Origin: Singulisphaera sp. GP187
GTDB lineage: Bacteria > Planctomycetota > Phycisphaerae > Phycisphaerales > SM1A02
DNA: 37,921 bases
NCBI GenBank assembly: GCA_945871445.1
Contig: CAMBWI010000020.1
Span: 1 to 37,921 of the forward strand
Direction of reading: 5' to 3'
Part shown: positions 22,089 through 27,024 of the stretch, piece by piece
How the letters are laid out: each line of letters starts with the position of its first letter
Numbering within the stretch: the stretch's first letter is position 1
Translations under genes and position numbers: made by a program
Notes under the pieces: model-generated
The model's database searches: none
What the model was told of the DNA's origin: nothing
What the model saw: the letters and a program-made list of their open reading frames with translations, nothing else

Positions 22089-23093
22089 TTCGCCATCGAC
22101 TTGTTCGACTGCAGATGGGCTTGGCGGAATATTCGGCAGAACATTGGGCGAAACATTAGGAGTGGAAGTCGTATTCCATTTGAAACCACTTGATGACCAC
22201 GTGGAATTGTTCGACATCAAGATCGCTCCGCCTATTGTCAATGCGGCCGCTACCAAGACTGCGAGAATTGGAAGTAAGACTGCAACCGATGCACGGAATC
22301 CTGAAACATTATGCAAAGTGACAAAGGCGTAAATCATTGCGACTGCCATCCAGATAAAACTGACCCATAAAATATAAAACCCGCAGCAAGGAACTGCACT
22401 AATAATGAATGGACCAGTACAAAAAAGTGTCGCACTGAGCGTGTCAAGTAACGGTCTACGAACGTCACCGCCCATACGCAGAATTGCGTGAGAACAACTG
22501 CCCCAAAGCAGAAACAGGATTTGCCCAAGGATTGCAGATCCCAAAACAACTCCAATCAATTGTGCCACAAATATCAATACATATTCAATGCCTGACATAC
22601 CTCGCAAAGATCCCACACCAATAAGCAATAGCAAGGGTGAAGTCGAAAACACGATTCCAATCGTTGAGCACAACAGTGAAAAGAACAACGCACTTTTGAG
22701 ATTTGTACGCTCTGGAAGCGTTCGCCCAACTTGACTGGGCTGTGACATCGATTGACCCACTGTTTGCCAAAATGAACGCCAATATCCCAAACGAGAACGT
22801 TCGCTCCATGGATGAACGTCATCCATTGCCCGACTGCCATCGGTTTGCGGAGCGGGAAGCGCTCGCATCTGATCAAGATCAATAGGTTGCTTGCAAGCTG
22901 CACAAATGAAGGCGCGCGGTATGGGCAGGCCTTGCGGATCTGTTCCGCCATATGTGTGATCACAGTGCGGACAAAGGAACTGCGCTGAGAAAGGACGAAA
23001 ACGAAAATCTTCGAATCGCCATTGGCGACCACATTCGGGACACCCGCCGGGCTTCATATTCCAAAGTTCATACTCGCATCCACGACAACGCAT
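22038..23093 (-). CDS. Zinc-ribbon and Yip1-like membrane protein
   Basis: The N-terminus has a Cys-rich zinc-ribbon set: CRGCEYEL ... CPECGRQW (residues 3-24), CPHCDHTYGG and CAACKQPID, so three paired knuckles. From about residue 130 there are some five membrane segments (ALFFSLLCSTIGIVFSTSPLLLLIGVG, IEYVLIFVAQLIGVVLGSAILGQILFLLW and others) with a Yip1-like pattern. The C-terminal tail is low-complexity (TSTPNVSPNVLPNIPPSPS). The function is unknown. The ATG at 23093 overlaps the rpoN stop by one base (TGATG). Confidence 0.82.
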   Translation of the reverse strand: MRCRGCEYELWNMKPGGCPECGRQWRFEDFRFRPFSAQFLCPHCDHTYGGTDPQGLPIPRAFICAACKQPIDLDQMRALPAPQTDGSRAMDDVHPWSERSRLGYWRSFWQTVGQSMSQPSQVGRTLPERTNLKSALFFSLLCSTIGIVFSTSPLLLLIGVGSLRGMSGIEYVLIFVAQLIGVVLGSAILGQILFLLWGSCSHAILRMGGDVRRPLLDTLSATLFCTGPFIISAVPCCGFYILWVSFIWMAVAMIYAFVTLHNVSGFRASVAVLLPILAVLVAAALTIGGAILMSNNSTWSSSGFKWNTTSTPNVSPNVLPNIPPSPSAVEQVDGESNAQVLPPLGPEAPEK

Positions 23094-24613
23094 CAGTGTG
23101 TTTCGACAACTCGGCGCAATCTTGCCGATGGAATGTTCAGTTGCTCACGATATTTCACCACCGTTCGACGAGCGAGTGGTATGCCTCTCTCCTTCAATGC
23201 GAGTGAAATCGCCTGATCCGAGAGTGGCTTGGACTTCACTTCTGCGGCAATAATTTCTCCAACAATTGCCTTGACTGCAATCCAAGAAATATCGCTGCCA
23301 GATTCCGTCTCTGTGCCACCAGCGAAAAGTTTTCGCAATTCGAATGACCCGCGTGGGGTGACGATCCATTTGCCAGCAACCGTTCTGCTAATCGTGCTGA
23401 CATTCATTCGAAGTTTCTTTGCAACTTGTGTCATTGGCAGTGGCTTCAGCGCGCCTCCACCAGAATCAAGCCACTCGCGTTGATTTGCGATCACTTCGTT
23501 CACAACACGCAGAAGCGTCGCACCACGCTGCTCAATCGCATCGATAAACCAGCGCGCACGGCGAATGCCATCGTTCAACATCAATTTCGTGGCGGCATCT
23601 GTCTTCTTCGCTTTGGACAATCGCAAATATTCTTCGCTGACTTGCAGATTTGGCAGAACTCCACTTGCCAACCGAGCTGAATATGCGTCAGTAACTGCGT
23701 CATATTCGATGATGACATCTGGACGAACCAAGGGTGCGCTTTCAACCTTCAATGATCGGCCGGGCGCAGGAGTGCAATGTCGAAGGCACTCTCTGGCAAG
23801 ATCAAGCCGCTCGCTTGTCCAACCGTGACGCTGTCGAATAGCCGTGAGACGATTGGACTCTAAATCGCGAAGATCATTCTCGACAAGAATTCTTGCGTCA
23901 GCGAAACTTGTATCGCCATCAATCGCAGTCTCTCTTTTTTCGCGAGCATTCAACTGCAATACGAGCGATTCGCTCAAATTGCGAGCAGCCATCCCTGGTG
24001 GTTCAAGATGCGATTGAAGACGCTTCAGCGCTTCGGTCAAAAGTGCAGCAGTCGGAGTCTCGGTCCCAAAATCCGTGACATCCCCTGCGATTTCTTCGAT
24101 CGAGCGAATGAGAAAACCATTCTCGCCGATGTTGGATATCAACACTCGTCCTGCTGACATAATGGGAGGCGGAGCTTCGCAGAGCGCCCACTGATCCAAC
24201 AGAATTTCCTCGAAACTCTGGCCGTTTGATGGCGCACTTTCCAATGCTGCTGAACGAGAATCAAAATCCCCTTCACGACGAACGATTTCTCTCCAGGTCT
24301 CTGAAAATTCGTCGTCGCCCATGCGCTCATGCAATTCTTGCGCGCGCTCGAATCGATCCGCTCCTGCAGGCGCAGGAGTGACTAGTGCGGGTGATGGCGA
24401 AAAATCACTCGCATCGTTGCCACTCGAAGCATCGAGGCTTTGTCCTGGCTCGACTTGTTCGAGGGCAACATTGGATTCCAATTCTGCTTCGATTCGTTCT
24501 TCAATGGCGGCGAGGGGCATCTGCAGAATCTCCATCGACTGGAGAACCCGAGGCGCCAGTTTCATCTGTTGGCCAAGACGGACTTGCGCCTGCTGAGAAA
24601 GTTCAAATCGCAC
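23093..24613 (-). CDS. rpoN: RNA polymerase sigma-54 factor
   Basis: The 506-residue protein has the sigma-54 layout: Gln/Leu-rich region I (LSQQAQVRLGQQMKLAPRVLQSMEILQMP), an acidic linker, the core-binding domain, and a C-terminal RpoN box (LARRTVVKYREQL). It directs RNA polymerase to -24/-12 promoters and needs an enhancer-binding ATPase. The start GTG at 24613 places region I at the N-terminus and has AAAGG about 12 nt upstream; the frame stays open to 24697 but would overlap recR. It follows recR by 31 bp and overlaps the next gene. Confidence 0.95.
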   Translation of the reverse strand: MRFELSQQAQVRLGQQMKLAPRVLQSMEILQMPLAAIEERIEAELESNVALEQVEPGQSLDASSGNDASDFSPSPALVTPAPAGADRFERAQELHERMGDDEFSETWREIVRREGDFDSRSAALESAPSNGQSFEEILLDQWALCEAPPPIMSAGRVLISNIGENGFLIRSIEEIAGDVTDFGTETPTAALLTEALKRLQSHLEPPGMAARNLSESLVLQLNAREKRETAIDGDTSFADARILVENDLRDLESNRLTAIRQRHGWTSERLDLARECLRHCTPAPGRSLKVESAPLVRPDVIIEYDAVTDAYSARLASGVLPNLQVSEEYLRLSKAKKTDAATKLMLNDGIRRARWFIDAIEQRGATLLRVVNEVIANQREWLDSGGGALKPLPMTQVAKKLRMNVSTISRTVAGKWIVTPRGSFELRKLFAGGTETESGSDISWIAVKAIVGEIIAAEVKSKPLSDQAISLALKERGIPLARRTVVKYREQLNIPSARLRRVVETH

Positions 24614-24644
24614 GCACGAATCGTACCTTTCTTTCGTCCCTGAT

Positions 24645-25286
24645 CTACACAATCTGACGCAGCGAAATTGCGTCAGAAAGCGCAGCGCGATTCGCAAATT
24701 CTATTTGCGACCCCGACGGCAGTCCGCGTGCGAGCCTTGTGACTTTGATCGAAGTTTTCGAAAGAAGTTCTGCGATATACAGTCCAGTTGAATCACCTTC
24801 AAGATCAGGATTCAGCGCAAGAACAATCTCACGAATCTCAACTCCACACGAATTGCGCGCAGGATCAATCACACGAGCCATGAGATCGCTTGCAGTAATA
24901 CTTTCGGGACCGACACCATCAAGCGGATCGAGACGGCCCATTAATACGTGATAGACGCCTCGAAACATTCCAGTTTGTTCGAGATTGATGAGGTCCTTTG
25001 GTTGCTCGACAACCATAACGATGGATGCATCGCGCCTTGTATCTGCGCAGATATGACATGGCGAATGATCCGCTGGATTCCAGCAGATAGGACAGTGCCG
25101 AACTGTTTGCTTGACTGCCGTAATTGCCTGTGCCAATGCAAGTGCATCTTCACTTGGTGCTTTGAGAACCCAGAATGCCAGCCGCTCCGCAGTGCGTCGA
25201 CCAATTCCTGGAAGCACTGCCAATGCTTCGATCAGCCGATTGACGCTTTCCGGATATGGACCTCGGTCGCTGTTCGAGCGTGGCAT
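24645..25286 (-). CDS. recR: Recombination protein RecR
   Basis: RecR acts with RecF and RecO to load RecA at gaps in single-stranded DNA. The 213-residue protein has an N-terminal helix-hairpin-helix (LAVLPGIGRRTAERLAF), the four-Cys zinc finger (Cys65, Cys68, Cys77, Cys80), and a Toprim domain (IVMVVEQPKDLINLEQTG ... ALNPDLEGDSTGLYIAEL). It starts 2 bp after dnaX. YbaB, which often sits between dnaX and recR, is absent here. Confidence 0.95.
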   Translation of the reverse strand: MPRSNSDRGPYPESVNRLIEALAVLPGIGRRTAERLAFWVLKAPSEDALALAQAITAVKQTVRHCPICWNPADHSPCHICADTRRDASIVMVVEQPKDLINLEQTGMFRGVYHVLMGRLDPLDGVGPESITASDLMARVIDPARNSCGVEIREIVLALNPDLEGDSTGLYIAELLSKTSIKVTRLARGLPSGSQIEFANRAALSDAISLRQIV

Positions 25287-25288
25287 CG

Positions 25289-26893
25289 TCAGAGATTCCC
25301 GTTTGAAGGCGCCGTGGAATTTGACGTGTTTTTCGTGCTCGCAACTGTGCGCGGCGAGACACGATTGACTACAGCATCGAGAATTTCTGCAGCTTCACGA
25401 ACCAGCGGATGTCGACGAACTGCTTCAAGATTCAGATCAGTCCGAGGAGCAACGAACGTTTTCGCGAGCTCATTTTCTGGTTCTTTTTGTTGCGTTGGCG
25501 TTGGCGGCGTGAAAGTTTTCGAAGCAGAAACAAATTGCGGCACTGCGACTGACTTTGCCGAGGGGATCACTGACGCAGTGGCGCGCACGCGAGACAAATC
25601 AACTATTTTTTTTTTGGAATCAGAAGCAGTGCCTTCACCAGCAAGCAGCGCAACACCACTCGTGAAATGCTCCGACATACACAGTCGTGCGATCACTGCA
25701 TCAAAGAGAGCGCGAGGAATTGCAGATCCGCGAATATTTCTGACGGACGCATCGCAAAGAGCAATCAAATGCACCAACGCTGGAGGATCAAACTTGCCTG
25801 CATGCACCGCCATTCGATTTCGGGTCTCCGCAGGAAGATCGACCAATTCACTTTGCGCGCCACACACACGAAGTAAGAGTGCGTCACGCAAACGAGATGC
25901 GATCGTGTCGAGCGCATGGTCGCAGGACATCCCCTGATCCAACAAGGTTGCTGCAGTCGCCAATCCCCGTCCAGGATCTCCATCGGCAATAGCTGCCAAC
26001 AATGCCTCGAGTAATTCTTCATCTGGAAGTCCCAGAACATCACGCGCCAATGCGACTGAAACATGGCCAGATGCGGCAGAAACAAGTCGATCCAACAAAC
26101 TCAGTCCGTCACGCATAGAACCGTTGGCTAATCGCGCGACCTGCAGAATGACCGCTTCATCCGCCGACAGCTTTTCGCTTGTCAACACACTGCGCAGATG
26201 TGCCGCAATTGCAACTGTTGGGATCGAACGAAAATCAAAGCGTTGACAACGACTTTGAATAGTTGCCGGGACTTTATGAGGTTCTGTCGTGCAGAGAATG
26301 AACTTCACATGTGCTGGAGGTTCTTCCATCGTCTTCAGCAATGCGTTGAACGCAGGCTGAGTCAGCATGTGCACTTCGTCAATGATGTAGATCTTGTACG
26401 GACTGCGCGCAGGAGTCATTCCAGCGCCGGCGATCAGATCGCGTGCGTCATCAACTCCACGATTGCTTGCGCCATCGATTTCAACGACATCAAGATCTTG
26501 CCCACGCATAATTGATTCGCCAATTGCAGTCTGCTGCGTAAGCGAATCGACGGCATTCAACGCACGGGCAAAAATTCGCGCCATCGAAGTTTTACCAACC
26601 CCACGAGTCCCGCAAAAAAGATATGCATGTGCAGTCCTGCCAAGTGCAATCGCATTGCGCAAAGTATTCGCAATCGCATCTTGACCAACGACCTCTTCAA
26701 AGGAACGAGATCGATAGCGCCTTGCAAAAACTTGATAGGGTTCTGCTGCAACTTCACCGCCAAAGAGATCACGCTTTGGAGAATCGGAATCCGCCACTTC
26801 GGAATCGATAGGTGACTTCGCAGCGACATTCAGCGCGTCAGACTGAATATCCGACTCGCTCGTACGATTTTTTGCTTTGGCTTTCGGTGTCAT
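25289..26893 (-). CDS. dnaX: DNA polymerase III subunit tau/gamma
   Basis: The 534-residue product is the clamp-loader ATPase. Visible motifs: Walker A GTRGVGKT (95-102), Walker B DEVH (172-175), the arginine-finger SRC (214-216). ATG 26893 is used because the open frame upstream lies inside the SRP RNA gene. The zinc-binding Cys cluster normally following the Walker A helix is missing: in its place is AVDSLTQQTAIGESIMRG. Codons 427-430 (TCC-AAA-AAA-AAA-ATA) include an A10 run; a shift in either direction meets a stop at once, so a gamma-like form of about 430 residues is likely. The tail after it (about 104 residues) is Pro/Lys-rich, as in tau C-terminal parts. Confidence 0.94.
   Translation of the reverse strand: MTPKAKAKNRTSESDIQSDALNVAAKSPIDSEVADSDSPKRDLFGGEVAAEPYQVFARRYRSRSFEEVVGQDAIANTLRNAIALGRTAHAYLFCGTRGVGKTSMARIFARALNAVDSLTQQTAIGESIMRGQDLDVVEIDGASNRGVDDARDLIAGAGMTPARSPYKIYIIDEVHMLTQPAFNALLKTMEEPPAHVKFILCTTEPHKVPATIQSRCQRFDFRSIPTVAIAAHLRSVLTSEKLSADEAVILQVARLANGSMRDGLSLLDRLVSAASGHVSVALARDVLGLPDEELLEALLAAIADGDPGRGLATAATLLDQGMSCDHALDTIASRLRDALLLRVCGAQSELVDLPAETRNRMAVHAGKFDPPALVHLIALCDASVRNIRGSAIPRALFDAVIARLCMSEHFTSGVALLAGEGTASDSKKKIVDLSRVRATASVIPSAKSVAVPQFVSASKTFTPPTPTQQKEPENELAKTFVAPRTDLNLEAVRRHPLVREAAEILDAVVNRVSPRTVASTKNTSNSTAPSNGNL
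25606..25615 (-). other. A10 slippage site in dnaX
   Basis: Ten A residues on the coding strand fill codons 427-429 and the first base of codon 430. Read with one base missing the next codon is TAG; with one extra base the reading is AAT-AGT-TGA. In Thermus thermophilus a comparable A-run in dnaX causes RNA polymerase slippage that yields gamma. The position agrees with an E. coli-sized gamma (about 430 residues). Confidence 0.6.
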
Positions 26894-26908: not shown

Positions 26909-27020
26909 GGGGAGGACGACCAGGCGACCAACGGCATGGACGACGAAGCTTATGGCTGCTGCCGTCAGGCCCTGACCAGGTTCACGAGCCGCCCACCCAT
27001 CGGGCCCGGCCGTCCTCCTC
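26909..27020 (-). ncRNA. ffs: Bacterial small SRP RNA (4.5S type)
   Basis: The minus-strand RNA folds as one long hairpin: its ends pair as GGAGGACG (27011-27018) with CGTCCTCC (26910-26917 region). The apical region reads GGTCAGGGCC-TGAC-GGCAGCAGCC, the diagnostic SRP domain IV sequence, where Ffh binds. The tetraloop is UGAC (26964-26967) instead of GGAA, a known URRC-type variant. There is no Alu domain, as in 4.5S RNAs. It directs ribosomes making membrane proteins to the membrane with Ffh/FtsY. No T-run follows; dnaX begins about 15 nt later. Ends are approximate. Confidence 0.92.
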
Positions 27021-27024
27021 ATTT

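Follow-up and report, generated by a model that had tools for sequence, protein, structure and literature searches.

The dnaX locus

The window, the whole stretch of DNA analyzed here (37,921 nucleotides), carries a dnaX gene on the minus strand, located between a small SRP RNA gene and recR. The features of this locus are listed below in the direction of transcription of dnaX.

26915–27011, minus strand: small SRP RNA gene, directly upstream of dnaX (RF00169, 52.5 bits, gathering threshold 40)
25289–26893, minus strand: dnaX, full-length tau of 534 amino acids, ATG at 26893 (TIGR02397 and Pfam)
25606–25615, minus strand: candidate A10 slippage site (A in the mRNA), phase 0, AAA AAA AAA A (direct reading and relatives)
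25603–25605, minus strand: TAG stop in the frame with one A fewer in the mRNA; KKK-stop, predicted gamma-like product of 429 amino acids
25599–25601, minus strand: TGA stop in the frame with one A extra in the mRNA; KKK-N-S-stop, predicted gamma-like product of 431 amino acids
25292–25606, minus strand: tau-only C-terminal tail, 105 residues, with end motif HPLVREAAEILDAVV (tail HMM from 103 genes)
24645–25286, minus strand: recR, directly downstream of dnaX (TIGR00615, E value 1.1e-62)
23093–24697, minus strand: sigma-54 gene rpoN, after recR

The N-terminal part of the protein is an ordinary DnaX with domains I–III. It matches TIGR02397 (dnaX_nterm) with an E value of 7.9e-111 and 370.7 bits (cut-off 250), and PF13177, PF22608 and PF12169 of Pfam are above their cut-offs. 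The run of ten A's (A10) starts about 20 residues past the end of domain III, between this domain and the tau tail. The reading frame across the run is GAT TCC AAA AAA AAA ATA GTT GAT. With 426 codons between the ATG and the run, the A10 is located at codons 427–430 of a 534-codon open reading frame (ORF), where an earlier interpretation made from the letters of this DNA (the sequence-only reading) had placed it. The same reading had both shifted frames ending within three codons, with a shortened product of about 430 residues. Loss of one A indeed leads to TAG and gain of one A to AAT-AGT-TGA, and the computed products have 429 and 431 residues, respectively.

A longer ORF, starting at 27022, was considered for dnaX and rejected. 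It is too long, as its first 43 codons overlap the SRP RNA gene. The matches of its first residues (roughly 2–45) in relatives probably reflect SRP RNA and not protein.

The tau tail of the window gene is short (105 residues) compared to those of seven relatives (163–322 residues), and of the tail motifs only the one at the end is kept. Tails of 85–115 residues are also present in some members of the family. A Pfam scan of the window tail gave no match and thus no tau C-terminal domain. Weak matches to tau C-terminal families were found in four of the five relatives' tails that were scanned, which are longer.

The recR gene adjoins dnaX here (25286–25292, minus strand). Several relatives instead have a YbaB/EbfC-like frame right after dnaX, which was identified by eye (MFD..K...G..KDLPRIQ). 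The four-cysteine zinc module that is usual in domain I of DnaX is absent from the window gene (26492–26554, minus strand, residues 157–177). In the genus, family and order groups, this stretch has 0–1 cysteines in all 71 loci that match the flanking pattern (46 unmatched). It has at least three cysteines in 40 of 40 matched loci from the rest of the class (8 unmatched) and in 23 of 23 from the rest of the phylum (17 unmatched).

No terminator or promoter was found at the run, on either strand, within 25400–25800. The locus has no match to an Rfam frameshift element, the SRP RNA being its sole Rfam match.

The A10 is the only run of eight or more A's or T's in the window. The sequence-only reading was therefore correct that runs of this length are otherwise absent, but the window by itself lends this little force. 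At least as many A8 matches were present in 66 of 100 shuffled windows, and a single run of this kind is not improbable at this base composition. The weight comes from the genome and from the relatives. The genome (2,258,487 bases, or 2.26 Mb, 82% complete) has two A10 runs in all, one of them in dnaX; around the second, no frame between stops exceeds 62 codons, whichever strand is read. Across about 185 Mb from 61 family genomes, dnaX holds 29 of the 53 distinct runs of at least ten A's, and 20 of these genomes have no such run other than the one in dnaX. Several of the runs outside dnaX (24, of which 21 were examined) lie at the end of a contig or where there is no long open frame.

Conservation of the run in the class Phycisphaerae

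A sample of 177 genomes from the class (G000–G176) was assembled, 19 of them from the genus and the remainder drawn evenly from the family, order and class. A dnaX locus was found in 165 genomes; the other 12 had no match or fragments only and were not used (in G146, the gene is in two pieces). The contigs stop before the site in five cases, and 160 dnaX genes are readable.

A run of 9–12 A's is present at the same place in 116 of the 160 genes (A10 in 93, A9 in 22 and A12 in one), and two more genes have A8; the genomes are mostly drafts in many contigs, so that single run lengths may be off by one base. Another 35 genes have no run of eight or more and carry instead an in-phase −1 heptamer of the X_XXA_AAN type: A_AAA_AAA in 23, G_GGA_AAA in nine, C_CCA_AAA in two and G_GGA_AAG in one. 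The heptamer A_AAA_AAG is not found among them. Counted from the LLKTLEEP-type motif, the median position of the signal is codon 244 for the runs and 242 for the heptamers. The last seven genes (G034, G171, G135, G176, G126, G158 and G133) have neither signal, and gamma by recoding is thus not kept everywhere in the class.

The sequence-only reading had suggested aligning the gene from relatives, where recurrence of the run with its stops would speak for a slippage site and AAG lysine codons breaking up the run would speak against it. The run recurs, with near stops in both other frames (see below). At most one gene of the 160 (G034) has AAG codons in place of the run, and its AAG AAG AAG is about 25 codons beyond the usual place and may be another patch. 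The other genes without a run have a heptamer (35) or neither signal (six).

The run occurs in all three codon phases among the 116 genes, which indicates that the nucleotide run is kept and not one codon frame. Upstream of the run, lysine codons in these genes are 29% AAA and 71% AAG, while the run itself is all A. Among the 118 runs of A8–A12, 93 have exactly ten A's and only one is longer than ten.

Four dnaX genes from one genus of the order (L112, L113, L116 and L117) have G_GGA_AAA with a stop one codon on. Their −1 frame is 69–78 codons long and has no significant match to the tau tail HMM.

Stop codons around the signal and the frame of tau

The tau frame was assigned by homology to the tail HMM. 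Assignment by ORF length was also tried within the class, and was given up because it is misleading in some GC-rich genes.

In 108 of the 116 A9–A12 genes, each of the two non-tau frames reaches a stop within 14 codons (in eight genes this is not so). Sampling of other positions in these genes predicts 11.5 and 12.6 such cases in two null sets of 5000 draws each, the highest draw being 25. When the sequences are thinned at 80% identity, the count becomes 81 of 89; the statistics assume independent genes, and thinning reduces the effect of shared ancestry without eliminating it. Only two of the 35 heptamer genes have both non-tau stops within this distance. The difference is clearest for the third frame, which is out of reach of a single −1 shift. 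Its stop is at a median distance of 3 codons in the run genes (112 genes) and 58 codons in the heptamer genes (35 genes), with a p value of 2.5e-18. The medians are 3 and 46 codons after thinning to less than 80% identity (p = 3.5e-12). Among genes that encode tau in the genomic frame, those with A-runs have equal median stop distances in both shifted frames (3 and 3 codons, p = 0.34, n = 97), and those with heptamers stop soon only in the −1 frame (2 and 35 codons, n = 9).

Of the 116 A-run genes, 96 have tau in the genomic frame, 16 in the frame with one A more and three in the frame with one A less, with one gene undecided. The corresponding numbers for the 35 heptamer genes are nine, 21 and zero, with five undecided. 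The one-A-less frame, found in G118, G092 and G139, is unreachable by one −1 ribosomal shift; the assemblies of these three genomes have 2, about 120 and about 370 contigs as a set, and a miscount of the run by one base is possible. Among the 16 one-A-more genes, G102 and G108 are in single-contig assemblies and G105 is in an assembly of two contigs, so that the chance of an assembly error is lower there.

RNA structure, Shine-Dalgarno-like sequences and lysine tRNAs

The frameshift site of E. coli dnaX is accompanied by a Shine-Dalgarno-like (SD-like) sequence and a stem-loop. Downstream of the signal, the heptamer genes of the class have a median structure z score of −1.62, and 13 of 35 (37%) are below −2. 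The A-run genes have a median of −0.05, with 4% below −2 (n = 118; p of about 1e-6 between the two groups). The 60 control stretches have a median of 0.07, with none below −2. For the window gene, no stimulatory structure was found in the 63 nt downstream of the run (z of 0.21). The 111-nt stretch around the run, including upstream sequence, is borderline (z of −1.88, with 5 of 200 shuffles as stable).

The median excess of SD-like pairing upstream of the signal, relative to control, is −4.2 kcal/mol in the heptamer genes and weaker, −1.7 kcal/mol, in the A-run genes; the heptamer loci are more GC-rich (0.68 versus 0.62), which may inflate this contrast. Visual inspection of CTGCTTCTGATTCC, which precedes the window run, revealed no obvious SD-like sequence of the kind expected about 10 nt before a −1 frameshift site.

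Genes for tRNA-Lys with CTT and TTT anticodons are both present in the window genome. Both were found in A-run and heptamer genomes alike, by a pattern search that is no census (matches in 30/61 and 34/61 genomes). The lysine tRNAs are thus not supported as the factor that decides between the mechanisms.

Exchange of signals on the gene tree

A gene tree was calculated with IQ-TREE from 156 DnaX N-terminal sequences (quick search, SH-aLRT support), leaving out four short rows. On this tree, at least 11 changes between run and heptamer are needed, compared to a mean of 30.9 and a minimum of 26 in 100 label shuffles. The polarity, that is, whether tau or gamma is in the genomic frame, changes 20 times (excluding G163, which is cut by a contig end). 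These counts depend on the gene tree, in which 57 of 153 inner branches are weak. Both kinds of signal are found together in supported clades: G089 (heptamer) with G085, G101 and G097 (A10; support of 99), G119, G099 and G114 (heptamer) with G117 (A9; support of 95), and G095 (heptamer) with G103 (A8; support of 98).

We consider it probable that selection holds a two-product output of dnaX throughout the class, with at least 11 exchanges between RNA-polymerase slippage and −1 frameshifting and about 20 reversals of the genomic frame between tau and gamma.

A-runs in dnaX outside the class

Outside the class but within the phylum, 40 loci were read from the 55 genomes drawn. Four of them (G222, G199, G179 and G203) have at least nine A's in codons 200–310 after the motif, and a fifth, G192, has such a run further down.

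A scan of named genomes across bacteria was read for the best 80 of 589 matches, 78 of them readable, and 14 of these have a run of at least nine A's. Five of the 14 (L247 and L252–L255) are titled Phycisphaerae or Phycisphaerales or are identical to a sampled genome of the class. The other nine are from Planctomycetaceae, Aporhodopirellula, Gemmata, another planctomycete, Akkermansiaceae, Opitutaceae, a Bacteroidetes and two Clostridia. Both non-tau frames stop within 10 codons in all nine, with the tau frame taken from ORF length; in two of the nine, an AT-rich composition makes nearby stops easy to come by. A_AAA_AAA is present at codons 243–253 in three near relatives that lack a run (L246, L248 and L249, the last two titled Phycisphaerales). 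In-phase heptamers are also present in 10 other loci among the best 80 of 589 matches, several of them AT-rich, and a heptamer alone therefore means little outside the class.

Proposed mechanism

The A10 is most likely a programmed transcriptional slippage site that gives both tau and a gamma-like protein. RNA polymerase would add or skip A's while copying the T10 template, producing dnaX mRNAs with runs of varied length. An mRNA with ten A's, or with ten plus or minus a multiple of three, would be translated into full-length tau (534 amino acids, plus or minus a lysine). An mRNA shifted by one or two would reach TAG or TGA within three codons and yield a gamma-like subunit of about 429–431 amino acids, which would keep domains I–III and lose the tau tail. 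Both proteins would then enter the clamp loader; we infer this step, as we do slippage in the cell and its efficiency. The conserved run and the near stops in relatives support the Thermus-type slippage site that the sequence-only reading had proposed. Taken together, the close stops in both frames, the polarity and the contrast in RNA structure favor two-way RNA-polymerase slippage at the A-runs and −1 ribosomal frameshifting at the heptamers.

The short product could also be made by the ribosome, through −1 slippage on the in-phase A_AAA_AAA heptamer within the A10, in the manner of E. coli dnaX. An A_AAA_AAN heptamer is contained in a run of this length in every phase, and some −1 ribosomal slippage may add to the short product. 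This mechanism also fits the 35 relatives with a heptamer and no run, which have downstream structure and SD-like sequence as a group. Seven A's would suffice for it, however, and yet 93 of the 118 runs have ten. The stops in the +1 frame are equally close, although −1 slippage does not enter that frame. Moreover, tau is in the one-A-less frame in three A-run genes and in none of the 30 decided heptamer genes, and the A-run genes as a group lack downstream structure, as does the window gene directly downstream of its run. As the source of the short product in the window gene, ribosomal slippage is unlikely.

Phase variation at the DNA level, with the run length differing between cells and tau being switched on and off, is very improbable. 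Homopolymer tracts do mutate, and the assembled frame leads to gamma in 19 of the 116 A-run genes (16 one-A-more and three one-A-less). Such switching is hard to reconcile with ten A's being held across the class, with a single run above ten among 118, and with the heptamer genes, which offer the same two products at the same place with no long run. In addition, every cell would be expected to require dnaX. Least credible, and already strongly disfavored, is a lysine patch due to chance or to the protein, without recoding: the run does encode two or three lysines in the 40 commonest A-run peptides, but its codon phase varies, AAG makes up 71% of the lysine codons in the rest of these genes, stops flank it in both frames far above expectation, and an AAG-coded patch is present in at most one of 160 relatives.

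Two-way slippage at the run therefore remains the preferred reading, and it has wider implications. The reason why bacteria make gamma beside tau has long been debated. A product pair that is kept while the mechanism and the polarity change suggests that the pair itself is selected, and the class provides matched genes for testing both mechanisms. If signals have truly been exchanged, the class would be a natural experiment on recoding and would strongly indicate that these cells benefit from gamma. Long A-runs are accompanied by near stops in both other frames, and heptamers by a near stop in one frame together with structure. This rule may separate the two mechanisms from sequence alone, and it may also serve for genes with the long product in the genomic frame, which are overlooked by split-gene surveys.

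Comparison with known systems

The dnaX gene of Thermus thermophilus slips on a run of nine A's, and about half of its product is short (PMC1088944). It has the run on the sense strand late in the gene, tau in the genomic frame and near stops in both other frames (PMC1088944, PMC5009743), all of which are also found in the window gene. On the other hand, the window gene has A10, belongs to another phylum, has a short tau tail and is known here from its sequence. With these differences, it is very probably a case of Thermus-type programmed slippage in dnaX.

Antonov et al. (2013) described 17 split dnaX genes that need a shift to produce tau, nine of them with ten A's, and proposed transcriptional slippage (PMC3711429). 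The window gene shares exactly ten A's with those nine, and the polarity in which tau requires slippage also occurs in 16 plus 3 of the 116 A-run genes of the class. Each of the 17 genes spans two ORFs, whereas tau is encoded by a single open frame in the window gene and in 96 of the 116. Surveys that look for split genes would not detect the window gene and such relatives.

Both mechanisms were reviewed by Atkins et al. (2016), who linked the choice between them to lysine tRNAs (PMC5009743). The window genome has both tRNA-Lys genes, as reported there for Thermus, but so do several genomes with heptamers.

In E. coli, dnaX uses a −1 programmed ribosomal frameshift at A_AAA_AAG (PMC5009743, PMC3711429). 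The two products and the part of the gene are the same in the class, where 35 of 160 relatives have a −1 heptamer at this place. Unlike E. coli, however, the heptamers of the class are never A_AAA_AAG, and the window gene has a run with no structure directly downstream.

No report of dnaX slippage or frameshifting in planctomycetes was found in the titles and abstract starts of the open-licence papers listed by full-text searches. The principle of slippage is already known from Thermus dnaX and from the split genes of Antonov et al. Among open-licence papers, what appears to be new is the near-universal retention of the signal throughout a class, together with its repeated exchange with ribosomal frameshift signals.
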